DNA of 64,000 nt from Robertkochia solimangrovi. Lineage in GTDB: Bacteria; Bacteroidota; Bacteroidia; Flavobacteriales; Flavobacteriaceae. The DNA lies in NCBI RefSeq assembly GCF_007279655.1, contig NZ_QKWN01000001.1:1-64000 (forward strand), written 5' to 3'. The position numbers and the translations under genes are program-made. This document shows, piece by piece, positions 1,228 through 54,737 of the stretch. Below the pieces are notes generated by a model that saw only the letters and a list, made by a program, of their open reading frames with translations, did not search any database and was not told the DNA's origin. Every line of letters begins with the position of its first letter. Position 1 is the stretch's first letter.

Positions 1228-1296
1228 TCACGATGCTAAACTTACCATCAATCAATCTTTGGATGTTTGTACATTTAATGCTACATAAATTATCGG

Positions 1297-7707: not shown

Positions 7708-7766
7708 ATCAAAATATTTCGTAGCTGCCATTCAAAAATTGGCATCTAGATCGTAAGTAACCTGTC

Positions 7767-7988: not shown

Positions 7989-8105
7989 TTAATCCCTTTA
8001 TTCAATCTAATTATTTATTAATCCTAAACCCTTAAAAAAGGGATAGTTATACGAATTTTAAACAGGTATATTCATGATTCTGACGTATCTTTATATCCAT
8101 TATTG

Positions 8106-8127
8106 ATTTACCTTTTTTAAGGTAAAT
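8106..8127. promoter_or_regulatory. perfect 9-bp hairpin before orphan ORF
   Basis: ATTTACCTT and AAGGTAAAT form a perfect 9-bp stem with a TTTT loop, 10 bp before the ATG at 8138. No T-run follows on the plus strand, so it does not look like a terminator. It could be an operator or a 5' mRNA structure. Confidence 0.4.
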
Positions 8128-8137
8128 AACTGGTTAA

Positions 8138-8494: not shown

Positions 8495-8568
8495 TTTAAA
8501 GACCATCAACCGGCTGTTGTAATTTCCTAAAACAGTAAATATGTACAACTCCATAAAATTCAGAAAAG

Positions 8569-19649: not shown

Positions 19650-19848
19650 TGTATACGATCTTTACCTCTAAGACCCAAAAATGAACTCCTACCTGTTATC
19701 CGGGTCGATTATGAAAAGGTTAACTTAATGTGAAGTGACGATGCTGCTCCCTATTTATTGGGACAACTTGGACGAAGTTGAATTAACGACCCTGATTGCA
19801 GCAGGCTGGATCCTTTTAAAGCAGGAATTACGCGAAGTACCTTCTTTG

Positions 19849-20439
19849 CTAATGACTGATCACGTAATAGGTTAGAAAAATAAAATAGGGGATACAGGAA
19901 ATATGGAATTCGGATTCATATTTGGAAATATGACGAATTGCTTCCATCATCTGTTTTTGAACGGTATGTACTGAAATTTGTAAAATTTCGGCGATCTCTT
20001 TGTATTTGAAACCTTCGAGACGATTCAAGGTAAAGATCAGTCTTCGTTGTGGAGGGAGTTCTTCAATAATACGCTCAATATGTTTCTCCGTTTCACGGTA
20101 TTGAATGGAAAGTTCTCCGGAATGATGATCTGATTGTAACTGGATTTCTGAAAAACCGATCTCCTCGAAGGTAATATTATTAGTTCGCATCGCCTTCAGT
20201 GACTGATTTTTTATAGCGATGAACAGATACGATTTAAAATTGTATTGAATTTCCAGGGAATGTCTTCCTTCCCAGATCTTGAAGAACACGTCGGCAACGA
20301 TCTCTTCAGCCAGATCCGTACGTTTTACGAATGAGGCTGCGAACTGACACAAAGGGAAATAATATTTGCGAAATAATCGCTCCAAAGCCCTTTGGTCATC
20401 ACCTTTTATTTGCTCGATCAACAGCTTATCCTGATCCAT
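19849..20439 (-). CDS. ECF RNA polymerase sigma factor (FecI-like)
   Basis: This ECF sigma factor has about 196 residues from ATG 20439. Region 2 includes FRKYYFPLCQFAASFVKRTDLAEEIVADVF in parts and a FKSYLFIAIKNQSL segment. Region 4 contains LPPQRRLIFTLNRLEGFKYKEIAEI and the HTH helix SVHTVQKQMMEAIRHI. The frame extends 13 codons upstream to 20478, but MDQDKLLIEQI is the usual start of this family. The protein ends with an unusual hydrophobic tail (CIPYFIFLTYYVISH). It should drive the downstream fecR-susC-susD-BACON-phosphoesterase genes when released by FecR. Confidence 0.93.
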   Translation of the reverse strand: MDQDKLLIEQIKGDDQRALERLFRKYYFPLCQFAASFVKRTDLAEEIVADVFFKIWEGRHSLEIQYNFKSYLFIAIKNQSLKAMRTNNITFEEIGFSEIQLQSDHHSGELSIQYRETEKHIERIIEELPPQRRLIFTLNRLEGFKYKEIAEILQISVHTVQKQMMEAIRHISKYESEFHISCIPYFIFLTYYVISH

Positions 20440-38790: not shown

Positions 38791-40143
38791 ATGAAAATAT
38801 TCCTTACTTCCCTTACGGCTGTTATACTACTGGGATCCTGCCAGGTAAAGACCCGTACTCAAAAAGATTCAGAATTAATCGTTTATGCCGATTCGATCTT
38901 CTCTATTGCAGTCGATAGCAGTGAGATCGCAGGTGCTGCAATTCTGATCGCCAAAGGTGATTCAGTACTTCTTGATAATCGTTATGGTTTCAGCAGTCTG
39001 GAATTACAGGTTCCTATTCCGGAAGAGGCCCAGTTTGAGATCGGTTCTGTAACCAAACAATTTACCGCAGCCGCTATCTTAAAATTAGCAGAAGATGGAA
39101 AATTGAATCTGGATGATGATTTTACCCAATACCTGGATTTCGATACCCGTGGAAGAAAAGTCACCATACGCCAGTTACTGGACCATACTTCAGGTATTCC
39201 CGGCTATACCGAAATGCCATTTTTCGGAGATCTCATGATCCAACATAAACCTAAGGACACGCTGGTAAGGCTTGTCGAAAAAGGAGATTTCCTCTTTGAA
39301 CCGGGAGAAGCCATGATCTATAATAATTCAGCGTATTTCTTTTTAGGTATTATTATCGAAAAGGCCAGTGGAGAATCATATGAAACCTATCTGGAAAAAA
39401 ATATCTTCATACCATTGAAAATGGAACATACCTATTACTGCAGCAATACAGAAATAAAGAACGGAAAAGTATACGGTTACAGTTTTACGGGAGAAGGACT
39501 GAGTCAAAAAGGGTATCTCGATCATACCTGGCCCTATGCCGCCGGATCACTGTGCAGTTCTACTCAAGATCTTTATACCTGGTTAAAAGCCTTACACCAT
39601 GGGAATGTACTCGATGTCGCTACTTATAAGACCATGATCACCCCTGACACTCTAAATGACGGCACACCGCTTAGCTATGCCAAAGGGTTACTTCATTTCA
39701 AGAATCAAGGGCATGATATGATCGCTCATGGCGGAGGGATCAACGGCTTTCTATCAGAAGCCCGATACTTCCCTGACGATGATCTGTACGTTATCTGCCT
39801 CGTCAATACCACAGGCCCTAAAGGAGCCGGATATTTTGCAGACGCACTGAGTTGGGAATTATTGGATAAGGTTCCGGTCGATCAAAAGGCACTGGATACT
39901 GACCTCTCCAAATTAGTCGGTTATTATTCCGGTGCGGTTAGAGGCAGAAGGATCGGTCTGAATGTAGAAGCAATGAACGATACACTTTTGATCAAACATG
40001 AAGGAAGAGAGAAGGTCGACACCTTATCCGTCTTTATAGGAAATAATACCTGGGTGGAAGGTAATGACGTCATTTCATTTTCTGAAGATAAAATGAAGAT
40101 CAATGAGAACTATGGCTTCTATATTTTGAAAAAATCTGAGTAG
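38791..40143 (+). CDS. serine hydrolase, class C beta-lactamase fold, lipoprotein
   Basis: This 450-residue lipoprotein (lipobox LGSC, Cys17) has a penicillin-binding/class C beta-lactamase domain (about residues 30-360). The catalytic Ser86-x-x-Lys89 is in EIGSVTKQF, Tyr177-x-Asn179 in MIYNNSAY, and a third motif AHGGGINGF replaces KTG. A C-terminal beta domain (about 365-450) follows. The HGG-type third motif is usual for esterases, D-aminopeptidases and peptidases of this family rather than true resistance enzymes. It is probably periplasmic and membrane-anchored, and follows the DinB gene by 53 bp. Confidence 0.9.
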   Translation: MKIFLTSLTAVILLGSCQVKTRTQKDSELIVYADSIFSIAVDSSEIAGAAILIAKGDSVLLDNRYGFSSLELQVPIPEEAQFEIGSVTKQFTAAAILKLAEDGKLNLDDDFTQYLDFDTRGRKVTIRQLLDHTSGIPGYTEMPFFGDLMIQHKPKDTLVRLVEKGDFLFEPGEAMIYNNSAYFFLGIIIEKASGESYETYLEKNIFIPLKMEHTYYCSNTEIKNGKVYGYSFTGEGLSQKGYLDHTWPYAAGSLCSSTQDLYTWLKALHHGNVLDVATYKTMITPDTLNDGTPLSYAKGLLHFKNQGHDMIAHGGGINGFLSEARYFPDDDLYVICLVNTTGPKGAGYFADALSWELLDKVPVDQKALDTDLSKLVGYYSGAVRGRRIGLNVEAMNDTLLIKHEGREKVDTLSVFIGNNTWVEGNDVISFSEDKMKINENYGFYILKKSE

Positions 40144-40310: not shown

Positions 40311-40340
40311 TTAAGGGTAATTAAAGTTTCATTCGTGATA
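40311..40340 (+). promoter_or_regulatory. predicted ECF-sigma promoter, STN-less SusCD module
   Basis: TTAAGGGT, two bases, TTAAA, then TTCGT lie in a 30-bp block that matches the block before the fecR gene (47309-47338) at 23 of 30 positions with no gap. The GGGT and CGT elements, 15 bp apart, have the form of ECF -35 and -10 boxes. The start would be near 40342, giving a leader of about 530 nt for susC at 40874. Confidence 0.6.
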
Positions 40341-40407
40341 TACAATATATAATTCAGGTTCTTTTCAATAATCATGAATTTTTGACATTGACTGAATTTT
40401 ATGAATT

Positions 40408-40441
40408 AAAAAACCGAAAAATGCTGCTACATTTTTCGGTT
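40408..40441 (-). terminator. rho-independent terminator facing away from susC
   Basis: A perfect 12-bp stem (AACCGAAAAATG 40412-40423 and CATTTTTCGGTT 40430-40441, 6-nt loop) is followed on the minus strand by six T (40413-40408). On the plus strand only two T follow, so it acts on minus-strand transcripts. Confidence 0.85.
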
Positions 40442-40758
40442 GGTAATTAAGATGATTAATAATTTAACCATTTAAAGTTATGACCAAATTTACAACTTTA
40501 ATTCTACGCGGTAAAACAGGCTGTTTTTCTTTAAAAAGGATAGAAATACCTCCTTCATTCATTTGATTCAAATAATAGATCGCGATAAGCAGTAACGGGG
40601 CTAACTGCAATTCAGGCTTATCGATTTTCACGCTGATCCGGATTGGTTTCACACCTTTTAAGATCAGACGAAGGGACTGTTATGTCTGAACTTTTCTCAA
40701 ATGAACAGTAAAGAACAGCGTCCATCGATTTGCTGTCAACCCACCAGTCCCACTTCAA
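40410..40758 (-). ncRNA. candidate antisense RNA / small mRNA in susC leader
   Basis: A minus-strand transcription unit of about 350 nt is bounded by a promoter-like sequence (40795-40765) and a strong terminator (40441-40408). It lies entirely within the predicted leader of the plus-strand susC operon, so the RNA would be fully complementary to that leader. It contains a 62-codon frame with a GTG start (40652-40464; MKPIRISVKIDKPELQLAP at the N-terminus) preceded by AAAGG at very short distance; no family is recognised. It could therefore be an antisense regulator, a small protein gene, or both. Confidence 0.5.
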
Positions 40759-40764
40759 ACAAAT

Positions 40765-40795
40765 CAAATTATACTAACTAAAAACAATTTGCAAA
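40765..40795 (-). promoter_or_regulatory. promoter of the minus-strand small transcript
   Basis: Read on the minus strand, TTTG (40795-40792) is followed by 18 bp and TATAATTTG (40773-40765). This is the Bacteroidota consensus with one extra base between TA and TTTG. Predicted start is near 40758. Confidence 0.45.
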
Positions 40796-40873
40796 TGAAA
40801 AACGAGCACACCACTAACGACCTGAAACCCGAAAACCGAAACAAAATTGATCATTAAAACCTTATCTACAATT

Positions 40874-43800
40874 ATGAGAAGAATTCAAGCTTACTCTGAA
40901 TTACTGGGTAAGAAGGGGCTGGCGTTGGCCGGATTCTCTTTCGCAATGATGATTGGCCAATCTTCCACGGCTTATGCTACGGATAACCATACATCTATCC
41001 AAAACAAGATCCATACTATAAGTCTGATTAAAAATAATTACGACACGAAAGATCAGACGATCACAATTAAAGGAACTGTCATCGATGAAAAAGGTGTTCC
41101 CCTCTCCGGTGTTGTAGTGATGGTACCCAACACGACCATTGCCTCTCAGACTGATTTCGATGGGAATTACACCATTACAGTTCCCGAAAATACCAAAACA
41201 CTGTTGTTCTCTTATCTCGGATTCGAAGATCAGACCATTACTATCGGTAAGAACCTTACCCTCAATATCGTTATGAAAGAGAATATCGAGGAACTCGGAG
41301 AAGTAGTGGTTACGGGATATCAGACCATTTCCAAGGAACGATCCACCGGATCCTTTGCCCAGGTAGAGGCTGAACAAATTCAAACCCGACCTGCCGCCAC
41401 CAATATCCTGGAAAGGATCGAAGGTTCAGCCGCAGGTATCAATTACACCAACGGCTCGGTTACCGTACGAGGAGGCAGTTCCATGTTACTGGGGCAGAGT
41501 CCGCTCATCGTAGTTGACGGATTCCCAATTACCGGAGGAATTGAAACCGTAAACCCCGAAGATGTGGCTACGGTTACGGTACTGAAAGATGCTTCTGCCG
41601 CTTCAATCTGGGGAGTTGCCGCCAGTAACGGGGTGATCGTGATCACTACTAAAAAAGGTAAAGCCGGACAAAAGTTAACCGTGGAGGTATCGGCCTTTAC
41701 TTCTATGACCGAACAGATCGATTATAATGAGAACGACTGGATGAGTACTTCCGATCAATTGGACATGCTCCTGGAATATGATGCAAAAGGTTGGTTCCAG
41801 TACGATCAGAAAATATCCAGAAAACAGGCTTTCACCGGCTTTGAACTTGCAAAATTGCATTTACTGGGGCTGGCTCCCGACGGAGATGTATGGTCACAGT
41901 CACAGTTTGACAACTACATAAATTCCCTGAGAAATAAAGAGGTGATCGATGACTGGAAGAAGTACCTCACCCGTACACCGGTACTTCAAACTTATAACCT
42001 CTCTCTGTCCAGTGCCGGAGAGCGTAACTCTACCTATGCATCCCTGGTGTTCAATGATCAGAAGGATGCTGCTATCGGAGATGCAGAACAACGTTTGATC
42101 TTCAATATGAATGACACTTATAAATTCAGTGATAAGGTACGCTTTTCTGCCGCGGTAACTGCTACTTACCAACAAGAACTCAATAACGGGATGTCGGTGA
42201 GCAGTGTGAATACCTATGAAGGGTATGAGGCACTGGTGGATGATTATGGTCAGCCAACACAGTTCTATCGGGCCTATGATCCGTGGACCAGTAAGGAACG
42301 GGAAGCAGCCAACGGTATTCATTTAGGATTCAACCCTATCGAACAACAACGTGCCAATGACAACTCCTATGAAGCTCTTGATATCCGTGCACGCTTCGGT
42401 CTCGAAGCTGAGATCTTAAAGGATCTAACTTTCGCAACCAATTTTCAGTATGAAAACAGCTTTGAGAAATATGATAACTTCTACAGCATGGATGAGTACA
42501 ACCAGCGATATAAGGTCTCGCGAGCCTATGTTGACGGGGTATACCAGTACCCGGTAGGTACCAACTACCGATTCACCGAAGTGAATGAATATTCCTGGAA
42601 TTTCCGAAATACCCTGAACTGGGATAAAACCTTCGGAAAACACAAGATCACCCTCTTCGGTGGTGCTGAGGTTAGAAAAATATTCTCAGAGACCACCTCC
42701 GACAGTAAATACGGGTATAACAAACAAACGACTCAATCAGTTCCGATCAACCAGCAGGATTTTCAGGCAGGTAGAATATTCGACTGGTACGGAAACCGAA
42801 TGTACGATACCTTCTGGAACACCTACAATTCAGACCGCAGACAATTCTCGGTCTTTGCCAACGGCGCCTATGAGTTCGATTCCAGATATGCAATCAATGG
42901 ATCCTTCCGTATCGACCAGGCCAACCTGTTTGGGTCTGACCCGGATTTCCGTTATAAACCACTCTGGTCTGCTGGTTTTGCCTGGAACATCACCAATGAA
43001 TCTTTTGTGAATATCGACTGGGTAGACATGCTGAGAATGCGGGCAACCATCGGGGTGAATGGAAATGCATCTTCCACCGAATCACCATATGCTCAGGCCG
43101 CCAATTATGTAACCTCCTGGGGAGCTAACCTGTACGACATGCTGCGTTTTACCAAGCCGGAGAATCAGCAGTTGAAATGGGAAGAGACAAGAACCTTCAA
43201 CCTGGGGCTTGATTTCAGTCTCTTTGCCAATGCCATCGGTGGTACGATCGAGTATTATAACAAGAATAGTACTGACCTTTTAGGAAACGTAACCCTCGAC
43301 CCAACGGTAGGATTTACTTCTGCCAGACTAAACTACGCGTCGATGATCAACCGTGGAGTGGAAGTAACCCTTAATGCAAACATCTTGCAGGGTGATGGAT
43401 TTAACTGGAGAACCTCCGCCAATATTTCCTATAACCACAATGAGGTGACCGATATTCTGGATCAAAAATTCACACCCTATCGGATTGCAACGGGAGGAGA
43501 TCTCGCGATTGGTTCTCCTCTGAACAATCTCTATTCGTATAACTATGCCGGACTCGACAATGCCGGTGTGATCCAGTTGGTGGATCCGAACGGAGGTACT
43601 AAATCCTGGGATGCCGGTGTGGAGGATAAATCAGAACTGCTTTATCACGGAACCACTGTGGCACCCTGGTATGGTGGACTCACCAATACCTTTAACTATA
43701 AAGGGATTGACCTGACCCTGAATCTGACCTATAAGTTTGGACATGTATTCCGTAGGTCTCATGATAATTCCTATACCAATGCCTATAACAGACCGGATAA

Positions 43801-44179
43801 TATCTGGGTGAACCGTTGGCAGGAGCCCGGTGACGAACTTACCACCCGAGTGCCGAAGATTCCGTATAATGGTACGAACCCTTATAATGGTGTTGGAGAG
43901 ACCTTCTATGACGGACTGGATGCAGATCTCTATTATTCCTATTCTCAGGATCTGATCTACAAAGCAGATTTCATCAGGGTACGAGACATCATCCTGGGAT
44001 ATACACTGCCTAAATCCTTTACTGATCAGACTTTCTTCACGAATCTGAAGTTCTCGTTCAACGTGACCAACCCATTCCTCTGGGTAGCCAATGATCCGGG
44101 ATATGATCCGGAATACGCGTATACCCAGGCATATAACAACCTGAAGACCTACACCTTCGGATTAAGAGCAACCTTCTAA
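40874..44179 (+). CDS. SusC/RagA TonB-linked transporter without STN domain
   Basis: This SusC-family outer-membrane transporter has about 1101 residues from ATG 40874; a TTG at 40847 would add nine residues before an already normal signal peptide. After the signal (ending AYATD) it goes straight to the carboxypeptidase-regulatory-like domain (GTVIDEKGVPLSGVVVMVP), with no STN domain. The TonB box EVVVTGYQ, plug (VRGGSSMLLGQSPLIVVDG, VLKDASAASIWGVAASNGV) and barrel follow, ending in TFGLRATF. It is clearly paralogous to the STN-containing SusC at 48.6-52.1 kb (shared HR/NRWQ-PGDELTT, IPYNG segments). It pairs with the SusD encoded 12 bp downstream. Confidence 0.94.
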   Translation: MRRIQAYSELLGKKGLALAGFSFAMMIGQSSTAYATDNHTSIQNKIHTISLIKNNYDTKDQTITIKGTVIDEKGVPLSGVVVMVPNTTIASQTDFDGNYTITVPENTKTLLFSYLGFEDQTITIGKNLTLNIVMKENIEELGEVVVTGYQTISKERSTGSFAQVEAEQIQTRPAATNILERIEGSAAGINYTNGSVTVRGGSSMLLGQSPLIVVDGFPITGGIETVNPEDVATVTVLKDASAASIWGVAASNGVIVITTKKGKAGQKLTVEVSAFTSMTEQIDYNENDWMSTSDQLDMLLEYDAKGWFQYDQKISRKQAFTGFELAKLHLLGLAPDGDVWSQSQFDNYINSLRNKEVIDDWKKYLTRTPVLQTYNLSLSSAGERNSTYASLVFNDQKDAAIGDAEQRLIFNMNDTYKFSDKVRFSAAVTATYQQELNNGMSVSSVNTYEGYEALVDDYGQPTQFYRAYDPWTSKEREAANGIHLGFNPIEQQRANDNSYEALDIRARFGLEAEILKDLTFATNFQYENSFEKYDNFYSMDEYNQRYKVSRAYVDGVYQYPVGTNYRFTEVNEYSWNFRNTLNWDKTFGKHKITLFGGAEVRKIFSETTSDSKYGYNKQTTQSVPINQQDFQAGRIFDWYGNRMYDTFWNTYNSDRRQFSVFANGAYEFDSRYAINGSFRIDQANLFGSDPDFRYKPLWSAGFAWNITNESFVNIDWVDMLRMRATIGVNGNASSTESPYAQAANYVTSWGANLYDMLRFTKPENQQLKWEETRTFNLGLDFSLFANAIGGTIEYYNKNSTDLLGNVTLDPTVGFTSARLNYASMINRGVEVTLNANILQGDGFNWRTSANISYNHNEVTDILDQKFTPYRIATGGDLAIGSPLNNLYSYNYAGLDNAGVIQLVDPNGGTKSWDAGVEDKSELLYHGTTVAPWYGGLTNTFNYKGIDLTLNLTYKFGHVFRRSHDNSYTNAYNRPDNIWVNRWQEPGDELTTRVPKIPYNGTNPYNGVGETFYDGLDADLYYSYSQDLIYKADFIRVRDIILGYTLPKSFTDQTFFTNLKFSFNVTNPFLWVANDPGYDPEYAYTQAYNNLKTYTFGLRATF

Positions 44180-44191
44180 AAAATACGCAAG

Positions 44192-45592
44192 ATGAAAAAA
44201 CTATTGATACTTCTGATAACCACGATCCTGATCACTTCGTGCAGCACGGATGAATTTCTCGATGTGATACCTACAGGAAGTAAAATACCCAATACCGTAG
44301 AGGATTTTGATAAACTTCTGAACGACTATAATTCCTCCTATCCTACCTGGAACAATGTTTCCTATATGGATCCGGATACCTGGATGCCGGGAGAGAATTA
44401 TAATTATTTGTGGAGACTCTTCTGGAGAGAACAATACAAATGGTCTGAGCAACAGTACAATGTCGATGACAATGATTACGACTGGATCTACAAATACCAG
44501 CGGATTTATGTGTATAACCTGATCATCTCCTATGTGGATGAAGCTCCGCTGGGAGGAACGATGACCGAAGCAGACCGTATGCGAATCAAAGGAGAAGCCC
44601 ATGCACAAAGAGCCTTCGATTATTTCTTTTTGGTGAATGAATACGGTCCTCATTATACCGCTGCCAATCTGGAGGTACCTACTGTACCCCTGGTATTGGA
44701 GACCGATCTTTCTGCCCAGCCGCCTAAAGCGACCGTGGGTGAGATCTACGAATTGATCGAAAATGATATTGCTATCGCCGAAGAATTACTTAAGAATGGC
44801 CAGGTGATTGACGAGGATGCTAACTTCAGACCTGGATCGGCTTCGGTGTATGCCTTCCGCTCCTGGATTGCACTGTACAAAGGGGATTTCGAAACGGCAA
44901 AGACTTATTCCGATAAAGCACTGGATCTGTTCGATTACCTCTATGACTATACTGAGTTGGAGAACAAGACCGCGGGAGACCCCTGGAGTGGCTTGAGCAT
45001 TACTGATTTTGATTATTCCACCGATAATCATTCTGTTATCTGGAACCGATACCACCGCTGGACCTACTATGATCCGGCGCAGCAATTCCTTCCTGAATTA
45101 GCGGAACTGTTCGATCAGGAGAACGATCAACGATTCATCCTGTTCGCTTCACCTACGAACTATTTCGGAACCTTCGACGCTTCCCCCAACTGGTACTATG
45201 CACGTTATTATGCCGAATCAGTAGCAGGAATTGACACCAAAGACCTGTTGATGGTAAGTGCGGAAGCCCACATCAGAACCGGAGATGCACAAGGAGCTCT
45301 GGATCGCATCAACTACTTACTTGAACACAGAATATTGAACTTCACACCTTATGAAGTCGGTGATTTTTCCGGAAACGAGGCGATCCTGCAATTCGTAAAA
45401 GACGAACGTCGCAAAGAACTCATGGCCACCGGGAAGAACTGGTTCGATCTGAAGCGTTATCATGCCTATGGAGAAACCGTTCCAACCTATACCAGAGAAG
45501 TAGAAGGACAAACCTATACGCTGGAGCCGGGAAGTGATAAATACATAGTTCCGATCTCCCCGAAGATCCTTAACCTTAATCCTAACCTGTAG
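44192..45592 (+). CDS. SusD/RagB nutrient-binding lipoprotein
   Basis: This 466-residue surface lipoprotein (lipobox TSC, Cys17) is of the SusD/RagB family. The N-terminal STDEFLDVIPTGSKIPNT segment is a family hallmark. TPR-like helices include ADRMRIKGEAHAQRAFDYFF, and the C-terminal SusD domain contains VKDERRKELMATGKNWFDLKR and ends NLNPNL. It forms the lid of the preceding transporter. The paralogue at 52.1-53.5 kb ends in the same way, supporting duplication of the whole SusCD unit. Confidence 0.94.
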   Translation: MKKLLILLITTILITSCSTDEFLDVIPTGSKIPNTVEDFDKLLNDYNSSYPTWNNVSYMDPDTWMPGENYNYLWRLFWREQYKWSEQQYNVDDNDYDWIYKYQRIYVYNLIISYVDEAPLGGTMTEADRMRIKGEAHAQRAFDYFFLVNEYGPHYTAANLEVPTVPLVLETDLSAQPPKATVGEIYELIENDIAIAEELLKNGQVIDEDANFRPGSASVYAFRSWIALYKGDFETAKTYSDKALDLFDYLYDYTELENKTAGDPWSGLSITDFDYSTDNHSVIWNRYHRWTYYDPAQQFLPELAELFDQENDQRFILFASPTNYFGTFDASPNWYYARYYAESVAGIDTKDLLMVSAEAHIRTGDAQGALDRINYLLEHRILNFTPYEVGDFSGNEAILQFVKDERRKELMATGKNWFDLKRYHAYGETVPTYTREVEGQTYTLEPGSDKYIVPISPKILNLNPNL

Positions 45593-45618
45593 TTTCCATA
45601 TTTTAAAAACCGAATAAA

Positions 45619-46596
45619 ATGAACAAATTCAAGATATTTAAATATATATCGGTATGTACAGTACTGTTCGCACTCTTTTCCTGTTCGGATGAAGGCTATA
45701 CCGACAATTCAGGCGTTACCCTGCCTGAAACTGAAGACCTGCCCTGGCAGGCCAATACCACACTGGAGGTAACCCCGGATGAAGACCATGCCTCTTTTAT
45801 CTGGTATCATGACCTGCTTACCGGAGAAGATTACTGGGGAAATGACGAAGTGATCCTGAATTTTGATCTGGAATCTGTGCTTACCGCAGATCAATTCTCC
45901 AAAATCGATTTCTACCTGACCGCAGAAGAAAAAGATGGATATAACTATACAGCCCCTTATGAGACCAGTGGTGCACTTTTGACCACCGTTAGTGAATGGA
46001 ATGAAGAAGGTCAGTTCAGCCTGACCATTGCGGCTGATTCGGCCTACGATCTCTTTCTGAATAAATACACCTATGATCGCTCCGAAAAACTGGCTCGCGA
46101 AGGCGACCTTTTTGAAATTCATTGGGTTATCACGGCCAAAAACGGAGAAGTATATGACTCTCGTGAATCCTGGACTGGGGATACCCGTTTTGGCATTCAG
46201 ACTAAACTGGAAAACTATGCACCACCGATCTTTGAGGGAACCTTCACTTATGAATATACCGACGCGACGGCAGACGCAGAATATTGGGGTAAAATCTCAG
46301 TAGGAGAAACCGGATCCATAAATTTCACACATCTTGGAAATCAGGTTTATTCTGTTCCCAATCTCGGTTTTAGTTATAATTACACCAGTTCAGGCACCAT
46401 TACACTGGATTTCCTCTCCGGATTGATAACGGTCAAGGGAAATGTTGAAGAGAAATGGATCATTACTAAAGTAGACGGACCGGACCTGTATATCGATATC
46501 GAATATAAATATTCAGCCTCCTACAATGAATACTTCTCTGTTAAACTTACCAGAACAGACGGAAATAACTGGCCTGAAAACATCCATACCGAATAA
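45619..46596 (+). CDS. PUL accessory lipoprotein, SusE-like position
   Basis: This 325-residue lipoprotein (lipobox LFSC, Cys22) follows SusD by 26 bp and ends the operon. No named domain is recognised. The mature chain looks all-beta, with an N-terminal segment rich in acidic and aromatic residues (DEDHASFIWYHDLLTGEDYWG). A middle domain follows, then a C-terminal beta-barrel-like domain (about 200-325, FEGTFTYEYTD, GTITLDFLSGLITVKG, EYFSVKLTRTDGN). The position and architecture fit a SusE/F-type surface ligand-binding protein. A strong terminator follows. Confidence 0.75.
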   Translation: MNKFKIFKYISVCTVLFALFSCSDEGYTDNSGVTLPETEDLPWQANTTLEVTPDEDHASFIWYHDLLTGEDYWGNDEVILNFDLESVLTADQFSKIDFYLTAEEKDGYNYTAPYETSGALLTTVSEWNEEGQFSLTIAADSAYDLFLNKYTYDRSEKLAREGDLFEIHWVITAKNGEVYDSRESWTGDTRFGIQTKLENYAPPIFEGTFTYEYTDATADAEYWGKISVGETGSINFTHLGNQVYSVPNLGFSYNYTSSGTITLDFLSGLITVKGNVEEKWIITKVDGPDLYIDIEYKYSASYNEYFSVKLTRTDGNNWPENIHTE

Positions 46597-46631
46597 TTTT
46601 CATTGGTATTTTTGATTAATTTGATTAGAGG

Positions 46632-46657
46632 AAATGGGGACTTGAAAGTCCCCATTT
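46632..46657. terminator. terminator between convergent SusD module and sigma gene
   Basis: A perfect 12-bp inverted repeat, AAATGGGGACTT (46632-46643) and AAGTCCCCATTT (46646-46657), is followed by TTATTT. It closes the upstream lipoprotein operon. The minus-strand tail (TCC) is poor, so it mainly serves the plus strand. Confidence 0.85.
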
Positions 46658-46671
46658 TATTTAGTATCAGA

Positions 46672-47241
46672 TCAGGAATGACAAAATACCTTCCTGAAAA
46701 GAAGAAACATATTCATAAATTGTTCGCCGAGCACTTCTCGAATGCGTTTGTAGGCGATCCTCATCTGAGATTCTACGGTTTTAACGGAAATCCCCAATAC
46801 CTCAGCAATTTCTATATGTGTTAAACCTTCATACTTATGTAATTTCAGTACTTCCTGGCATTTATCAGGAAGTTCATCGATCACTTTGGAAACCTGTCGA
46901 TATTTCCTCTGCATGCGATCTTCATCTTCCTGACTCTCTGATTCCAGAGCGGAAGCACCTATATTCACATAGATCTCACTTCGCTTATTTTCTCTTCTGA
47001 AATGGTCGATAAGAATGTTCTTGGAAAGTGTAAAAAGGTATTTCAAAGGGGTCACTTCAATAACCACCTCTTCCCGCTTTTCCCATAATTTAATAAAAGC
47101 CTGTTGCGCTATATCTTCTGCAAGGGAAATATCCTTAGTATAAACAAGACAAAATGCCACCACACGGTTGAAATACATATTGTAGATCTCCCTGAATAAT
47201 GGCTCCGTTATCTTTCCGTTATATTGGTCTTTTGTATTCAT
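46672..47241 (-). CDS. ECF RNA polymerase sigma factor (FecI-like)
   Basis: This 189-residue ECF sigma factor has region 2 at about residues 15-80 (VVAFCLVYTKDISLAEDIAQ, LKYLFTLSKNILIDHFRR). Region 4 is at about 125-178 (LPDKCQEVLKLHKYEGLTH, then the HTH IAEVLGISVKTVESQMRIA). The C-terminus is short and hydrophobic (MNMFLLFRKVF). It is divergent from fecR, a usual arrangement, and convergent with the upstream SusCD module. Its own gene has a housekeeping-type -7 box, while fecR and the other SusCD module carry the shared ECF-like block, so it probably activates both. Confidence 0.94.
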   Translation of the reverse strand: MNTKDQYNGKITEPLFREIYNMYFNRVVAFCLVYTKDISLAEDIAQQAFIKLWEKREEVVIEVTPLKYLFTLSKNILIDHFRRENKRSEIYVNIGASALESESQEDEDRMQRKYRQVSKVIDELPDKCQEVLKLHKYEGLTHIEIAEVLGISVKTVESQMRIAYKRIREVLGEQFMNMFLLFRKVFCHS

Positions 47242-47254
47242 AGCACGATCAACA

Positions 47255-47262
47255 CAAAAATA
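47255..47262 (-). promoter_or_regulatory. -7 box of the sigma gene promoter
   Basis: TATTTTTG on the minus strand (47262-47255) matches TAnnTTTG perfectly. The -33 position has ATTT rather than TTTG. The leader would be only about 7-10 nt before the ATG at 47241. Confidence 0.5.
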
Positions 47263-47308
47263 CAGGATAATACGAAATGTTAAATAAATTATAATAAAAT
47301 ATAGTAAC

Positions 47309-47338
47309 TTAAGGGTGGTTAAATTCTCTTTCGTTATC
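47309..47338 (+). promoter_or_regulatory. predicted ECF-sigma promoter of fecR-susCD operon
   Basis: TTAAGGGT, GG, TTAAA and TTCGT occur here in the same spacing as in the block at 40311-40340 (23 of 30 identical, ungapped). CGT is at 47332-47334, so transcription would start about 20 nt before the fecR ATG at 47363. This gives a short leader, in contrast to the long one of the upstream module. Confidence 0.6.
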
Positions 47339-47362: not shown

Positions 47363-48484
47363 ATGAAAAAACTGATCCGTAAATACCTCAATTCCAATTT
47401 AAATGAGGAAGAAACTCTTGCCCTAAAAAAATGGCTGGAGAAGGATGAGAATAACCATGAATTTGAAGAATTAATTCAGGAAGAATATCTCATCAATCTC
47501 CATCACGTTGAAAAATATGGCAAGGATCGCGATCGCATTTTCGACAAAATTATCGCCGCCAAACAGCCAAAGATTATTCCACTTTGGAAAAGGACACTCC
47601 GATATGCAGCCATATTTATATTGCTTGCAGGTCTCGGACTCATCCTTAATTATTTCCTGAATAATGATACGATTAATGCAGTGCCTGTCGATATGGTCTC
47701 TATCTATTTTGGAGAAAACAGTATTCGTATCGATACCGAAGCTGCCAATCATAATGTATATGATCCTGATGGCAAATTGATTGGAAATTTCATGGGCGAC
47801 ACTTTATTCTATAAAGGGAATACCGGACTCACTGCAGAAATGCTGATGCTAAAAGTTCCTTACGGAAGAAGATTTTCAGTTCAATTGACGGATAGTTCCA
47901 TGATCACTTTGAACGCCGGAAGTATTCTAAAATTTCCTGACGACTTTAAAAATGAAAATAAAAGACTGGTCTACCTGGAGGGAGAGGCCTATTTTGATAT
48001 CAGTCATAATGAAAATAAACCCTTTGTCGTGAATGCCTACGACATGAATGTAAAAGTATTCGGAACAAAATTCAACGTTGACGCCTATGCCGGTGAGCCT
48101 ATGACCAAAGTAGTGTTGGTTGAGGGTAAAGTCGGAATGTACAATATAAATCATGATGACCATGCCCTACTGACTCCGGGTACCATGGGAAGCATGCAGC
48201 GATTCGATACGACCCCTGATATCACGGTTTCGGAAGTAGATGCCAATATCTATACATCATGGATGGAAGGGAAGCTCGTATTCAGAAATGTCAACTTCGA
48301 ATCTGTAATCAAAAGTCTGGAGAGGTCCTTTAATAAGGAAATCATCTTAAAGAAAAATGATCTTAGAGACCAGACCATCAATGCTACCTTTGATCAAAAA
48401 GAACTGGAATCTATCCTTAAATATCTGAAAGAACTCTATAATTTTGATTATTCCATTCGGAATGATGTTGTCTATATTCGATAA
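47363..48484 (+). CDS. FecR-family anti-sigma factor
   Basis: This 373-residue inner-membrane anti-sigma factor has a cytoplasmic domain (1 to about 77, YLNSNLNEEETLALKKWLE), one TM helix (about 79-98) and a periplasmic FecR domain. The FecR domain spans about 165-270 (VPYGRRFSVQLTDSSMITLNAG, FDISHNENKPFVV) and is followed by a C-terminal DUF4974 domain (about 300-373). It has an insert of about 50 residues between the TM and the FecR domain that the 18.7-kb paralogue lacks. It is divergent from its sigma gene and precedes the STN-containing susC by 94 bp. Confidence 0.94.
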   Translation: MKKLIRKYLNSNLNEEETLALKKWLEKDENNHEFEELIQEEYLINLHHVEKYGKDRDRIFDKIIAAKQPKIIPLWKRTLRYAAIFILLAGLGLILNYFLNNDTINAVPVDMVSIYFGENSIRIDTEAANHNVYDPDGKLIGNFMGDTLFYKGNTGLTAEMLMLKVPYGRRFSVQLTDSSMITLNAGSILKFPDDFKNENKRLVYLEGEAYFDISHNENKPFVVNAYDMNVKVFGTKFNVDAYAGEPMTKVVLVEGKVGMYNINHDDHALLTPGTMGSMQRFDTTPDITVSEVDANIYTSWMEGKLVFRNVNFESVIKSLERSFNKEIILKKNDLRDQTINATFDQKELESILKYLKELYNFDYSIRNDVVYIR

Positions 48485-48578: not shown

Positions 48579-51500
48579 ATGAGGTTCAGACCTGAGCATA
48601 TTCTCGTAATACTATGTCTTTTGTTCATTTCCGAAATGAATGCACAAAAGAAAAGGATAACGCTCGATCTGGTGGATGTTCCACTTATAAAGGTCCTGGA
48701 GGATATAGAACGTCAGAGTCGTTATGAATTTGCCTATCTCGTACAAACCATCGATCCTGATCGCAGGGTTACCATTAAGGTCAATGAAGCTAAGATAAAC
48801 AGAACGCTTGAACTGTTGTTCAAGGATACGACAATTACCTATAAAATTATCGATGACCAGATCATACTTTCCAAAGAAGAGAATGCCCTGGAAAAAGATA
48901 ACCTGCCACTGACAACAGTGGTACAAAATTCCAGAACATATTTTGGAATCATTTCTGACGAAAATGGCATCCCTATTCCAGGTGTTACCATTAGCACCTC
49001 CGATTACAGATTTCTTGGATTCAGTGATGCTCAGGGACGTTTTGCCATTACCGTTTCCACAACAGCAAATCAATTATATTTCTCCTATGTTGGATTTGAA
49101 ACTAAAAATATAGACCTGTCCAATCTCGTAAAAACCTCGGGGCTTTCTGTGATTATGACTGAAGAAGTGAATTTTCTTGATGAGATCGTTTTAACCGGCT
49201 ATCAGGATATTCCTTCAGAACGAATGGCAGGATCCTATGACAAGGCGGATGAGGAGGTATTGGCTAATCGAATTTACACCAACCCGCTTGAAAGAGTTCT
49301 CGGTAGATTATCCGGGTTGAATTTCAATCCATACTCCCAGAATTTAGAAGTGCGCGGTCAGTCTTCCCTCCTTAGGAGTAGTACTCAACCACTCATTGTA
49401 CTTGATGGATTCCCTATGACCGACCAAAGTAATCTCGCCGCGATCAATGCGGAAGACATCGCTTCGGTCACTTTATTAAAAGATGCAGCTGCAGCCTCTG
49501 TATGGGGTGCACGTGCAAGTAACGGTGTACTTGTGATCGAGACCAAAAAGGGAGAACGAAATACCCCGTTACAATTGGAGTTATCTACTTTTATCGAGAT
49601 TGAAAAGAAAGTGAACACCAAAGATTTCAGCTGGCTCACCACTACTCAGGAACTGGAATTCGATCAGGAATATTATGACAAAGGTTATAGCAACCTGCCG
49701 AATTACCTGTCGCTGGGACGAAGCCTGAACAATTTTCATTTGGCTAAGGTATACCTGAACGGACTTTCTCCCAACGGAGATATCTGGTCACAACATACCT
49801 ATGAAAATTATATCGCGGCACTCAGGCAATATGATATCGGCAAGGATTGGGAGCGATATTTAATCAGGAATCAGATCCGACAAATTTATAACCTGTCCTT
49901 TCGAGGAGGTTCTTCTCAACATTCCTATTATGGTTCTGTATCTTATAATCAACATTTGGGGCAGCTTATGGGCAATAGCGATGACCGTTTGACTGCCAAT
50001 TTTAAGAACGACCTGAACTTTAGCAAGTACATCCGGCTAAAGCTAGGCGTCAATGGTGTTTTAAAAAATGAAAAGCTGAACGGACTCACCTTTACCGACC
50101 TCCGGAATGCCCAGCCCTACGACCGTCTTATTGACGATCATGGCTTTCGTACTGCCATCAACACCTCCTGGAATCCATGGATATCTCATGAGCGTGAAGA
50201 ACTAACCGGATTATCATATGCTTATAATTCTCTGGCAGAACAGGAAAATCGTGATAATACATCCCACGGATATGATATCAGAGCCGATATTTCGTTAGAA
50301 ATAGACCTTTTAAAGAATTTACAGTTCGCCACCTCCTTTCGCTTTGAAGAAGGTGAAGTGGTCAATAATGACTTCAAAAATATGGATCTGCCCTCCTACA
50401 GGTTTACGATAGCTGATTTTTATGTTGATTCAGCCTTCAGAATTCCATTAGGTTCAGATTACACTAAAAACACCAATTCCTACATGGGCTGGACCTTCAG
50501 AAACACCCTATCATATGATTTGGAACTGGAAAAACATAGTCTGAGTCTTTTCGCCGGAGCTGAATATCAAAGGAGATTTCTCAAAACCATTCTCTCCAGA
50601 AAACTAGGCTATGACAAATCAGATGGCACCTATGTACCCTTAAGTGCGATCGGACTTGAAAGTGTATCGATCACCGACTGGTACGGGAATCGATATCCTT
50701 ATAGCTACAGAAGTTTCGAAAATGAAAATATCGATGATAATCGCTTTGTGAATTTCTTTGCCAATATGGGGTATTCATTTCATGAAGAATTTCTTTTAAA
50801 TGCTAACATAAGGATCGACCAGGCTAACATTTACGGGAATGATCCTTCTTTCAGATATAAACCTCTTTGGTCGGTTGGAGCCGGCTGGATACCCACAAAA
50901 TCACTGATCCCGGATTCCGACGTTTTGAATTATCTAAAGATTCGGATATCTGCAGGGACCGGAGGCAATACGATCTTTAATCTTTCACCCTACCCAACTG
51001 CTATTCACTGGTCGAACAGCAATGGCTATTTTTATCCCTACAGCTATTATTATGAACCAGGAAATCCTAATTTGAAATGGGAGGAGACAAAAATATACGA
51101 TATCGGAGTTGATTTCACCCTTTTTGATAATCAGCTATACGGATCACTGGACATTTATTTTAAGAAAAGTGACGATCTCATCGGACTCAAATCACTGGAT
51201 CCGACCAATGGATTTCTGGATGGATTTGTAAACTACGCCGCTATGAAGAATAGAGGATATGAGATAAAACTGGGTGGGGAGATCCTACGATCATCATCGT
51301 TCGAATGGAAAGCTGACATCAACTTCAATTATAATAAAAATAAGATCATTAATTATGAGAACCTCAATTCAACTCCGGATGAGATCACAGCCGGTATCCG
51401 GTATTTCGAAGAATATCCTGCAAACGGTCTCTTCGCATATAATTATGCAGGCCTTAATGAACATGGTGATATAATGCTTTATGATACCGATGGCCGTAAA

Positions 51501-52112
51501 AAACTTTGGAGTGAAGCTATCGGGAATGATGAACTGGTCTATGAGGGTCCAAGAACTCCCCCCTATTACGGAGGTTTTTCCACTTCTTTAAGATATGGAT
51601 CCTTCGACCTTTCGGTTAACACTGCTTATCAGTTCGGGCACGTCTTTCGATATTCCATCGGCTATGGTATCGAAGGCTATGGCGCAGGTAATAATATCTC
51701 GGAATTCAGCTCCTTCAATCTAAGAATGAATGAGGCCTGGGCTCACCGATGGCAAAATCCGGGTGATGAGCTTACAACTCAAATCCCCAGAATTCCCTAC
51801 AACGGTTATAACCCGGAAAAAGGCGTGTATGAAAATTACTATACCGCCTATACCAGTCACCGGATATGGAGTCAATCAAGCTATCAAACCTATGAAGCCG
51901 ACAATTTTCGGATTCAGGATATAATTTTCGGGTATACGCTCCGGGGATTCGCACTTAAAAGTTCATCCATAAAATCATTGAGATTCACCCTGCAATGGAC
52001 CAACCCCTATGTCTGGCTTAAGAATGAAAGAAAAATAGATCCGCAAAATCCCAAAGAAAATGCCTATGCCAATCTGCCGAGATTGATCTTTGGATTAAGA
52101 GCAAAATTGTAA
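48579..52112 (+). CDS. SusC/RagA TonB-linked transporter with STN domain
   Basis: This 1177-residue outer-membrane transporter has a signal peptide (about 1-22), an STN domain (about 26-92, LDLVDVPLIKVLEDIERQ) and a carboxypeptidase-like domain (about 124-205). The TonB box region (EIVLTGYQ), plug (VRGQSSLLRSSTQPLIVLDG, LLKDAAAASVWGARASNGV) and barrel follow, ending in FGLRAKL. The STN domain marks it as the signalling transporter of the sigma/FecR pair next to it. It resembles the STN-less SusC of the upstream module throughout plug and barrel. It is followed by SusD after 2 bp. Confidence 0.95.
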   Translation: MRFRPEHILVILCLLFISEMNAQKKRITLDLVDVPLIKVLEDIERQSRYEFAYLVQTIDPDRRVTIKVNEAKINRTLELLFKDTTITYKIIDDQIILSKEENALEKDNLPLTTVVQNSRTYFGIISDENGIPIPGVTISTSDYRFLGFSDAQGRFAITVSTTANQLYFSYVGFETKNIDLSNLVKTSGLSVIMTEEVNFLDEIVLTGYQDIPSERMAGSYDKADEEVLANRIYTNPLERVLGRLSGLNFNPYSQNLEVRGQSSLLRSSTQPLIVLDGFPMTDQSNLAAINAEDIASVTLLKDAAAASVWGARASNGVLVIETKKGERNTPLQLELSTFIEIEKKVNTKDFSWLTTTQELEFDQEYYDKGYSNLPNYLSLGRSLNNFHLAKVYLNGLSPNGDIWSQHTYENYIAALRQYDIGKDWERYLIRNQIRQIYNLSFRGGSSQHSYYGSVSYNQHLGQLMGNSDDRLTANFKNDLNFSKYIRLKLGVNGVLKNEKLNGLTFTDLRNAQPYDRLIDDHGFRTAINTSWNPWISHEREELTGLSYAYNSLAEQENRDNTSHGYDIRADISLEIDLLKNLQFATSFRFEEGEVVNNDFKNMDLPSYRFTIADFYVDSAFRIPLGSDYTKNTNSYMGWTFRNTLSYDLELEKHSLSLFAGAEYQRRFLKTILSRKLGYDKSDGTYVPLSAIGLESVSITDWYGNRYPYSYRSFENENIDDNRFVNFFANMGYSFHEEFLLNANIRIDQANIYGNDPSFRYKPLWSVGAGWIPTKSLIPDSDVLNYLKIRISAGTGGNTIFNLSPYPTAIHWSNSNGYFYPYSYYYEPGNPNLKWEETKIYDIGVDFTLFDNQLYGSLDIYFKKSDDLIGLKSLDPTNGFLDGFVNYAAMKNRGYEIKLGGEILRSSSFEWKADINFNYNKNKIINYENLNSTPDEITAGIRYFEEYPANGLFAYNYAGLNEHGDIMLYDTDGRKKLWSEAIGNDELVYEGPRTPPYYGGFSTSLRYGSFDLSVNTAYQFGHVFRYSIGYGIEGYGAGNNISEFSSFNLRMNEAWAHRWQNPGDELTTQIPRIPYNGYNPEKGVYENYYTAYTSHRIWSQSSYQTYEADNFRIQDIIFGYTLRGFALKSSSIKSLRFTLQWTNPYVWLKNERKIDPQNPKENAYANLPRLIFGLRAKL

Positions 52113-52114: not shown

Positions 52115-53512
52115 ATGAAAAGTATTTTAAAATACATCCTCTTATCAATCCTGATTGGTGCCTGTGAAACTCCGGATGAATTTTTGGATGTGAAACCAGA
52201 CAACTCATTCAATCCTTCCACGTTGGGAGAGTTTGAGTCGCTGTTAAATAATGTATCATTTTCCTACAGACGACTTCAGAACCTAACGCTCATCGATCCC
52301 GATATAGCCATGAATGATCAATCTTATGCGAATATCATGGCCGATGAAGTAATGGTCAATGCCTTCAGATGGAATCACGAACTCTATAATGAGATCACAA
52401 ACGATCCGGATTACAATGATGCATATTCCAACATCTTTACTTTTAATCAGATCATTATGGATATTGAAGAGGCAACTGTCAATGAAGGCTACGAAGAATC
52501 TGACCGTGCAAATATAAAAGCGGAAGCACACGCCCAGCGTGCAATGGAATATTTCCTGCTAATCAATGAATATGCTGCTCATTATGATCCTGATCACCCT
52601 GACATCCCAGGTATTCCAATGCCCTTGGAGAATGATATAGAAGCACAACTCCCACGATCTTCAGTTTCAGATATTTATTCACAGATTCTAAGCGATCTTG
52701 AAATGGCCGCAACCTTGTTCGATGATACTTTTGAAGATGTGCAACCCGAAGCCAACTTTCGTCCCGGACTTGCCTCAATCTATGGATTATTAGCTGAAGT
52801 ACATTTGTATATGGGCGAATTTGAGCAGGCCGCGAGTTATGCAGAAGATGTGCTCCTGCGTTATAATTTTCTCTACGATTATAATACCATTGAACTCGAG
52901 GACATGGAAAATCCCTGGAAGGGCATCACTGAAACCGACCTGACCTTTGCCACGCTGAATAAAGAGGTTATCTGGAATCGGTATCATCGATGGAACTATT
53001 ATAATCCTTTTTACCTGTTTAGCGATGACCTCGTATCAACTTTTGATAAAGCCAGAGATCGTCGGTGGTATTTCTGGTCAACGCAGGTCTCACAAAACGG
53101 CATTGATACAAGTCCGTATTATATTTTCTGTATGTCGGATATCGAAACGAATGCAGGGATTACCATTCCCCGTTTGCTTTTGACCTATGCAGAAGCTCAA
53201 ACGCGTTCTGGAAATGTACCACAAGGACTGGAAGCTTTAAACACTTTGCTAACCCATCGAATTTCCAATTTCCGTCCCTATGAAATCACTGATCAGAATG
53301 AACTTCTTCAACTTATAAAAACTGAAAGAAGAAAAGAACTCTTTGGGACCTCTTTAAATACCTTCGACCAGAAACGCTATCATATTTATGGTGAAAAAGT
53401 ACCGGTTTTTGAACGCTCCCTCAATGGCATGAACTATGAATTATCTCCGGGAGACCAGGGTTATTTCATTGCGATACCCCTAAAGATCCGAAACATAAAT
53501 CCCAACCTTTAA
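52115..53512 (+). CDS. SusD/RagB nutrient-binding lipoprotein
   Basis: This 465-residue surface lipoprotein (lipobox IGAC, Cys17) has the SusD-type opening DEFLDVKPDNSFNPST and helical core (SDRANIKAEAHAQRAMEYFLL). The C-terminal SusD domain contains IKTERRKELFGTSLNTFDQKR and ends NINPNL. It is paralogous to the SusD at 44.2 kb. It lies 2 bp after susC and 7 bp before the thioredoxin-like gene, so it is tightly coupled in the operon. Confidence 0.94.
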   Translation: MKSILKYILLSILIGACETPDEFLDVKPDNSFNPSTLGEFESLLNNVSFSYRRLQNLTLIDPDIAMNDQSYANIMADEVMVNAFRWNHELYNEITNDPDYNDAYSNIFTFNQIIMDIEEATVNEGYEESDRANIKAEAHAQRAMEYFLLINEYAAHYDPDHPDIPGIPMPLENDIEAQLPRSSVSDIYSQILSDLEMAATLFDDTFEDVQPEANFRPGLASIYGLLAEVHLYMGEFEQAASYAEDVLLRYNFLYDYNTIELEDMENPWKGITETDLTFATLNKEVIWNRYHRWNYYNPFYLFSDDLVSTFDKARDRRWYFWSTQVSQNGIDTSPYYIFCMSDIETNAGITIPRLLLTYAEAQTRSGNVPQGLEALNTLLTHRISNFRPYEITDQNELLQLIKTERRKELFGTSLNTFDQKRYHIYGEKVPVFERSLNGMNYELSPGDQGYFIAIPLKIRNINPNL

Positions 53513-53519: not shown

Positions 53520-54737
53520 ATGAATCAAAAAACAACTCCATATATTCCTTATTGGATCCTGATACAGATACTGTCTTTGTCGCTTTTATTTAGCGGATGT
53601 AAACGTAAGGAAGATCAGGCTTTAAAAAATCAGAACTTTACCGTGATAGGAAATGTAAAAAACCTGAACAGTGAATACCTGATCTACAGTGAAGATTTCA
53701 ATTCGAAAACCGGAAACAGAATATATGACACCCTATGGATTAAGAATGGGAAATTCCAATTTCAGGATAGTATCGCCAATTTCAAATATTATCGGATTTT
53801 CGCGCGCCAAACCGAAAAAACCATATCACGCGTTGATGAAAAGAGCCATTCTTATCTGCCAACTCCGGTATCATGGTTTCACTTTATTGGATATCCCGGA
53901 GCTACAATAAAACTCGAAGGTCAGATTACAGACTTTGTAGATGCATACCCGAACGATGGTGGCATCAATGATTCACTGGGAAAACTTAACCGACGGATCT
54001 TTCCGTTACTGGATACCATAGTTAATTTAAAGCAACAATATTATCTGAACAATTCGGATCCGGAAACCTATCATGAGATCAGTAAAATATCTGATGCTAT
54101 CATGAAAGAAATTCGTGCCGAAAAAGAGCGATTCATAGTATCTCAACCTGATTCTCCGGTTGCAGCTTTTGTATTGCTGGATGCCTTTACACGAAGTGAA
54201 TTCAACGATGCAGAATTCAATCGGTTATATGAAAAACTAGATAGTATAGCCTTGAAGGATGTTTCTTTTTTCGAAGATCTTCGGGTGAGATATCTTGCCA
54301 TTGAAAATATCAAGATCGGGAAGATCATTCCTGATTTCACCTCTCCCGATACACCTGACAGTACCCTGTTCAATATTCGGGAATTAAGAGGTTACTACGT
54401 ACTTGTGGATTTTTGGGGAATCTGGTGTTCGCCATGTACCGATGAACTTCCTCAGATCAAATCCTATTATGAGAAATACAAAGATAAGGGATTGACGATC
54501 CTGGGGATCAATTCGGGAGATACGAGGGCAAAATGGCAGGATTATATTTACTCGAATGAATATAACTGGCATCATATTCAATCTGATAAACTTCAAAATG
54601 ACCTGATCACCCAATTAAATGTCAGGTATTTCCCGACCAAATTCCTGATCGACCCTGAAGGCCGAATCATATTTAGTTCAGAACAATCCAGACAAACGAT
54701 ATTTGAAGTGATGGATGAGATCTTTTCAGACAAATGA
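53520..54737 (+). CDS. TlpA-like thioredoxin-fold lipoprotein
   Basis: This 405-residue lipoprotein (lipobox FSGC, Cys27) has an N-terminal DUF4369-like beta domain (about 40-140). A helical linker (about 150-260) leads to a C-terminal TlpA/ResA thioredoxin domain (about 265-405) with the redox motif WCSPC (Cys303, Cys306) and the cis-Pro region YFPTKFLIDPEG. It is a probable periplasmic thiol-disulfide reductase. It ends the fecR-susC-susD operon and is convergent with the next gene, with only 3 bp between stops. Such proteins often accompany SusCD pairs lacking glycosidases. Confidence 0.9.
   Translation: MNQKTTPYIPYWILIQILSLSLLFSGCKRKEDQALKNQNFTVIGNVKNLNSEYLIYSEDFNSKTGNRIYDTLWIKNGKFQFQDSIANFKYYRIFARQTEKTISRVDEKSHSYLPTPVSWFHFIGYPGATIKLEGQITDFVDAYPNDGGINDSLGKLNRRIFPLLDTIVNLKQQYYLNNSDPETYHEISKISDAIMKEIRAEKERFIVSQPDSPVAAFVLLDAFTRSEFNDAEFNRLYEKLDSIALKDVSFFEDLRVRYLAIENIKIGKIIPDFTSPDTPDSTLFNIRELRGYYVLVDFWGIWCSPCTDELPQIKSYYEKYKDKGLTILGINSGDTRAKWQDYIYSNEYNWHHIQSDKLQNDLITQLNVRYFPTKFLIDPEGRIIFSSEQSRQTIFEVMDEIFSDK

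Follow-up and report, generated by a model that had tools for sequence, protein, structure and literature searches.

The locus examined here raises the question of whether a single sigma factor can drive two SusC/SusD (SusCD) modules. It lies in a 64,000-nucleotide stretch of Robertkochia solimangrovi DNA (the window; positions 1-64000 of contig 11 of a 4.4 Mb genome in 23 contigs). A sequence-only reading of the window had proposed that one extracytoplasmic function (ECF) sigma factor serves both modules through a shared 30-bp promoter. Our analysis indicates that the two blocks are very probably promoters recognised by one FecI-like ECF sigma factor, the gene for which lies between the modules in divergent orientation. 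The elements on which this answer turns are the following.

40311-40340, plus strand: promoter block 1, predicted ECF promoter of susC1-susD1-lipoprotein (-35 TTAAGGGT at 40311-40318, -10 CGT at 40334-40336)
46672-47241, minus strand: FecI-like ECF sigma factor, TIGR02985 (Sig70_bacteroi1), presumed reader of both promoters (profile match)
47255-47262, minus strand: TATTTTTG, upstream of the sigma gene, matching the -7 box of the Bacteroidota primary sigma (consensus match)
47309-47338, plus strand: promoter block 2, predicted ECF promoter of fecR-susC2-susD2-tlpA (-35 TTAAGGGT at 47309-47316, -10 CGT at 47332-47334)

Both blocks were found where the sequence-only reading had placed them. They align without gaps, with 23 of 30 positions identical, have TTAAGGGT, TTAAA and TTCGT in common, and separate GGGT from CGT by exactly 15 bases. 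When the two upstream regions were compared over their whole length, the closest ungapped pair of 30-mers agreed at 24 positions; in 1000 dinucleotide shuffles a match of 23 was reached in 2 and one of 24 in none. The 26-base pattern common to the blocks, allowing up to 3 mismatches, occurred at three sites in the 4.4 Mb genome, namely the two exact ones and one with 3 mismatches. GGGT-N15-CGT alone was rejected as a marker, as the window has 7 matches where 3.5 would be expected. Because this relaxed form is common, the pair of blocks would by itself be only moderately strong evidence, and the evidential weight lies in the longer match and the comparative evidence rather than in GGGT-N15-CGT. 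The primary-sigma box of Bacteroidota has the consensus TAnnTTTG in the available parts of two papers (PMC7366714, PMC9723704). We found no such box on the plus strand before susC1 or fecR; one stands on the minus strand before the sigma gene, which fits modules driven by an ECF sigma and a sigma gene driven by the primary sigma.

The 3-mismatch site (G000:C18:96353-96378; L003, L120) is a near-copy of block 1, with 22 of 26 bases and GGGA for GGGT. It stands 43 bp before an S9 peptidase gene, homologues of which (46-49%) occur in cousin SusCD clusters. Suggestive as it is, the site was omitted from the claim for its GGGA.

The pattern TTAAGGGT-N15-CGT was defined in R. solimangrovi and then tested in the sister species R. 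marina (G149). In R. marina the gene order is kept, with susC1-susD1-lipoprotein, a divergent sigma gene and fecR-susC2-susD2-tlpA, at 46% identity to the window for the sigma, 45% for SusC2 and 54% for SusD2. All four matches in the 3.5 Mb R. marina genome fell in this equivalent cluster (C6:226465-236810), on one strand, where they precede fecR, susC1, a gene for a 458-aa TlpA-like protein and a gene for a 396-aa TlpA; the counterparts of blocks 1 and 2 are the susC1 site at L156:4726 and the fecR site at L156:11726. In 500 shuffles of the 20.9-kb R. marina locus there were on average 0.008 sites and at most 1. The R. solimangrovi genome also had four matches, located before susC1, before fecR, before an unlinked tlpA and inside dnaJ. 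The unlinked site (G000:C14:102651, or L173:7652, on contig 14) stands 133 bp before a lone gene for a 395-aa TlpA, and the 396-aa TlpA of the R. marina cluster has this protein (51%) as its top match in R. solimangrovi. Three other genomes of the genus have one FecR each, and their best-scoring match to the 396-aa TlpA is only 27-29% identical; two of them have no TTAAGGGT-N15-CGT, and the third has two, both inside reading frames. With one mismatch allowed, the two Robertkochia genomes gave 20 matches beyond the cluster and perfect sites, 15 within open reading frames (ORFs) and 5 outside them by a simple ORF call; three of the five (L250, L252 and L241) stand 31 to 126 bp before an ORF, and none of them enters the claim.

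To ask which sigma may read these sites, we compared the sigma factors of the genome that are paired with a fecR. There are 18 of these; L029 and L037 had no usable reading frame, and the remaining 16, including the cluster sigma, were aligned together with the R. marina sigma and four cousin sigmas; 4 of the 16 have a late start. The cluster sigmas of the window and of R. marina have in common ISVKTVESQMRIA in region 4 and YLFTLSKNI[LF]ID in region 2, taken here to be the helices that face the -35 and -10 boxes, respectively. Among the other 15 aligned sigmas of R. solimangrovi, ISVKTVESQMRIA occurred in one, at the C4 locus, and YLFTLSKNI[LF]ID in none. R. marina has two FecR loci, the second of which resembles the single FecR of the three other genomes of the genus. 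Upstream of those four fecR genes we found AGGGGTAAA ... GTTGTTT, in the R. marina version TTAAGGGGTAAA. This second locus of R. marina has a G-rich, related -35 (TTAAGGGGT), and it differs in its -10 (GTTGTTT) and in spacing; its sigma reads RAVRK instead of KTVES (rows L177, L176, L116 and L117). The sites, their rarity, conservation and position, and the helices common to the two cluster sigmas are all seen in the sequence itself.

These results support the proposal of one ECF sigma for two SusCD modules through the four of four R. marina sites in the cluster and the shared sigma helices, and they point to two amendments. The scope of two modules holds as far as both blocks go, and the target set appears to be larger, since the tlpA on another contig also has the promoter. 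In R. solimangrovi, moreover, which has 18 FecR loci, the -35 helix of the cluster sigma recurs in the C4 sigma. Crosstalk from other sigmas is therefore possible, with the cluster sigma the most likely reader.

We then examined whether promoter and sigma go together over many fecR loci. From 47 loci one was dropped and 46 were counted. GGGT-N14-16-[CT]GT within 130 bp upstream of fecR was found in 9 of 15 loci with a divergent sigma and in 6 of 31 others; three control patterns gave 0 or 1 in each group. For the pairing of helix and promoter, sigma matches lacking a fecR within 450 bp were removed, as were duplicates, and 54 rows remained; a row counted as CACCC only when a GGGT-type site was absent from it. 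In these counts, which are uncorrected for descent, a K[TA]VE-type helix accompanied 18 of the 20 promoters of GGGT type (of the other two, L010 is an exception and L123 was unparsed), and NTVK accompanied 6 of 7 CACCC promoters, the seventh being misparsed and reading NTVK in full. No K[TA]VE sigma with a CACCC promoter was found among the 54 rows. The other 27 rows comprised 18 with a loose GGG match only (9 K[TA]VE, 8 other and 1 NTVK, L009) and 9 without a GGG match (2 K[TA]VE and 7 other). The loci with CACCC upstream of fecR and an NTVK region 4 helix (L006, L007, L008, L013, L148, L153 and L155) form a second promoter class.

Several observations weigh against assigning the two blocks to the neighbouring sigma. 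The fourth R. solimangrovi match lies inside dnaJ (gene named by eye; presumed chance), so the pattern alone is no proof, and the reversed pattern gave 0 to 6 matches per genome in nine genomes, with 3 in R. marina. As a family-wide motif the 26-base pattern was rejected: with up to 3 mismatches it matched in 86 of 149 genomes, its reversed control gave no fewer matches, and outside the genus it is therefore background. (One of the family matches, G021:C1:3629708, stands 33 bp before a fecR.) The TTAAGGGGT before the second R. marina fecR is a -35 not wholly unlike the motif. The sigma comparison covered 16 of the 37 region-4 matches in the R. solimangrovi genome, namely those paired with fecR, and in R. 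marina the FecR-linked sigmas. The remaining points concern the alternative that both blocks belong to a general class of ECF promoters, so that susC1 would answer another FecI-like sigma or a pool of them and not specifically its neighbour. GGGT-N15-CGT also stands before other fecR genes of R. solimangrovi, a genome with 18 FecR loci, and the C4 sigma has the same -35 helix, while TTAAGGGT without CGT occurs upstream of the C4 fecR; crosstalk is accordingly possible, and the C4 module is the closest relative found for the SusC1 barrel and for SusD1. However, the genome offers no more than three plausible TTAAGGGT-N15-CGT sites, both helices together occur in 0 of the 15 other aligned sigmas, and the R. 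marina susC1 keeps its site though the other FecR locus there differs in -10 and in sigma helix. We consider the general class unlikely, while giving it more credit than the other alternatives, and prefer the cluster sigma as reader of both blocks.

The genes of the two modules are the following.

40874-44179, plus strand: susC1, SusC/RagA transporter without an STN match, a mosaic (profile match, identity profile, trees)
44192-45592, plus strand: susD1 (profile match)
45619-46596, plus strand: predicted lipoprotein of 325 aa (no Pfam or NCBIfam match)
47363-48484, plus strand: fecR, anti-sigma factor with FecR and FecR_C domains (profile match)
48579-52112, plus strand: susC2, SusC/RagA transporter with an STN signalling domain (Pfam STN just below cut-off)
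52115-53512, plus strand: susD2 (profile match)
53520-54737, plus strand: tlpA-like gene, thioredoxin-fold protein with DUF4369 (profile match)

Profile searches with Pfam and NCBIfam returned the gene content that the sequence-only reading had described for both modules, with the sigma gene on the minus strand between them. The sigma scored 137.8 bits against TIGR02985 (cut-off 126.4), with Sigma70_r2 and r4_2 both present. Its gene adjoins a fecR bearing FecR domains, as expected of a FecI/FecR pair, and block 2 stands 28 bp before this fecR. The STN domain of SusC2 was found by Pfam at E 4.6e-6 and 26.8 bits, under the cut-off of 28.4; that of R. marina SusC2 reached 29.8 bits, over the cut-off. 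The description of susC1 as STN-less was borne out, since Pfam found no STN match in SusC1 of the window or of R. marina. SusC1 is a predicted target and not a signalling member. Companion genes in the window and in related clusters encode TlpA-like proteins and S9 and M16 peptidases, suggesting that the imported substrate may resemble a peptide and not be a glycan.

In the standard scheme of the FecI/FecR class, a substrate passing through an STN-bearing SusC signals to FecR, and FecR releases the sigma. By analogy, passage of a substrate through SusC2 would signal to FecR and so release the cluster sigma. Once released, the sigma would fire the promoter of fecR-susC2-susD2-tlpA, a feedback, and also that of susC1-susD1-lipoprotein, adding a second transporter; SusC1 could not itself signal, because it has no STN domain. 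With the lone tlpA on another contig, which has the same promoter, the predicted targets would be three transcription units in R. solimangrovi, and in R. marina four, all clustered. The primary sigma probably drives the sigma gene. An antisense RNA predicted in the susC1 leader may damp the susC1 module alone. In this scheme the binding of the sigma, the start sites, the signalling and the antisense RNA are predictions.

The two parts of SusC1 appear to have different relatives. Over residues 61-150, SusC1 of the window is 69% identical to R. marina SusC1 (L156:5159-8524), as compared with 47% to the C4 SusC and 39% to the C2 SusC of its own genome. From residue 261 the order is reversed, with 35-49% to R. 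marina, 48-60% to C4 and 44-61% to C2. Trees were made of 17 SusCs, the groups being named after the identity profile had been seen. The barrel tree rejects window and R. marina SusC1 as one clade (p-AU, approximately unbiased test, 1.5e-6). The head tree groups the two (93/86, not starred) and rejects the six-row grouping of the barrel (p-AU 0.009); with 96 columns the head set is small, and of its three long branches two belong to the six-row group, which makes the result for the head weaker than that for the barrel. On these comparisons, SusC1 of the window is a mosaic, its head like that of R. marina SusC1 and its barrel like those of its own STN-bearing paralogues.

We suggest, with about even confidence, that the susC1 locus is a fixed sigma-controlled slot, in which promoter, long leader, antisense RNA and STN-less head are inherited together and the transporter body is swapped by recombination near the head/plug boundary. 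If so, different transporters would be placed under one unchanged signal. In a metagenome-assembled genome of Flavobacteriaceae (L147), two SusC genes (396-3983 and 5248-8589) with fecR between them are 96% identical in DNA over 2932 bp. One has an STN-like head, as judged by eye, and the other has none, and the identity starts near the head/plug boundary. A similar exchange is thus seen directly there, or the assembly may be in error.

The mosaic also bears on the alternative that block 1 is an unused relic and that susC1 came from a module that lost its own sigma and fecR. Of the SusCs compared, those nearest to SusC1 in the barrel do bear an STN and have their own sigma and FecR. However, the site stands at the same place in R. 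marina, where the SusC1 barrel belongs to another lineage, which argues that the site belongs to the slot and not to an incoming module; we regard a relic as improbable. It is more improbable still that a DNA-binding regulator recognises the blocks, or that they match by chance or low complexity. The region is AT-rich and the promoter role is read from sequence alone, but the strict 15-base spacing, the position 28 bp before fecR, the single strand, the rarity and the pairing with sigma helices speak against such a reading. The reading that we retain is that of two promoters of the cluster sigma.

The susC1 leader is long, with 537 bases between block 1 and susC1, and contains two further predicted elements.

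40404-40480, minus strand: predicted cis-antisense RNA of about 76 nucleotides (nt), with a terminator-like hairpin (stem 40441-40412) and a T-run at its end
40485-40492, minus strand: TAAATTTG, primary-sigma -7 box match for the predicted antisense RNA (consensus match)

A similar layout was found in R. marina, where the predicted RNA occupies L156:4897-4829 on the minus strand (with its box, L156:4829-4909). The hairpin stem there is changed yet still paired, and is accompanied by a T-run and by the box TACATTTG at a similar distance. The hairpin loops are nearly alike, reading CTGCTA in the window and CTGCCA in R. marina on the plus strand. Each of the predicted RNAs, folded at lengths of 77 and 69 nt, adopts a pair of hairpins, and the z-scores are -5.4 and -6.4. 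In both species the element would lie antisense to the 5' part of the susC operon with its own box and terminator, a layout like that of DonS. Rfam gave no match at gathering score in the window or in L122. DonS is a family of cis-antisense RNAs, 78-128 nt long, of Bacteroides polysaccharide utilization loci (PULs), according to the part of PMC7366714 available. The likeness lies in a short RNA antisense to a susC transcript; the Robertkochia RNA differs from those described there in being predicted only, in belonging to Flavobacteriaceae and in lying in the leader of an STN-less module.

Among known systems, the locus resembles FecI/FecR/FecA-type signalling in that it combines an ECF sigma with FecR, SusD and an STN-bearing SusC and has a promoter of sigma type ahead of fecR. 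The usual picture of that type is one sigma for its own locus, whereas here the same promoter also stands at an STN-less SusC/SusD module and an unlinked tlpA (in R. marina, at four clustered units). In Bacteroides thetaiotaomicron, SigW-1 controls the distant PUL59, which in the words of its authors challenges convention (PMC12596196, available part). The likeness is that one ECF sigma acts on SusC/SusD genes outside its own pair. That case, in the same text, was established by transcriptomics and CRISPR interference, with a nonsignificant motif and TGTT near the -10; the Robertkochia motif is sharp, is local with one unlinked site, and is known from sequence alone. Promoters with a CGT box in the -10 region have been assigned to ECF sigmas in Flavobacterium psychrophilum as SM6 (PMC9723704, available part). 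SM6 is likened to our blocks by its -10 only, as ECF-type and from the same family of bacteria, and differs in serving several type IX secretion genes. A limited search of the open-access literature gave no report of the promoter, of the helix/-35 pairing or of the Robertkochia locus, and nothing usable on ECF240 promoters. The sequence thus offers a usable motif, a -35 class that tracks the sigma recognition helix and a small predicted target set, which would allow predicting which regulator-less SusCD modules answer which sigma. A kept slot with an exchanged transporter body would be a route to change imports without rewiring control.

Sites of this kind were also counted in related clusters. 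The multi-site count covered eight clusters, the window segment and 7 of 14 loci; six loci (L141, L149-L152 and L155) had no GGGT-type site. In the eight clusters GGGT-N15-[CT]GT occurred at 17 intergenic sites no more than 900 bp ahead of a gene; that gene was fecR for 7 of the sites and a different one for 10. The controls gave 0 (reversed), 1 (complement) and 7 (reverse complement), the last not being counted as an independent control because it is the same kind of site on the other strand. TAGGGTA-N14-CGT was rejected as a mark of the clusters in four distant genomes, where it was nonspecific (G422, 7 matches, 2 in the cluster; G006, 4 matches, 1 of them among the cluster sites; G196 and G317, 4 and 1 matches, none in the cluster). 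The multi-site reading in these four more distant genomes, which uses a looser pattern, is weaker than that for Robertkochia. Clusters of Aestuariivivens, Wocania and Tamlana (L144, L145, L146 and L137) contain several units with GGGT-type sites, including lipoprotein, S9 peptidase, TlpA-like and fecR genes, which suggests that they may be multi-unit local regulons.

Two further genes or pairs were noted in the window. A gene of the beta-lactamase family (PF00144; about 38791-40143) lies directly upstream of block 1, and a second sigma/FecR pair is found at about 19000-20080.

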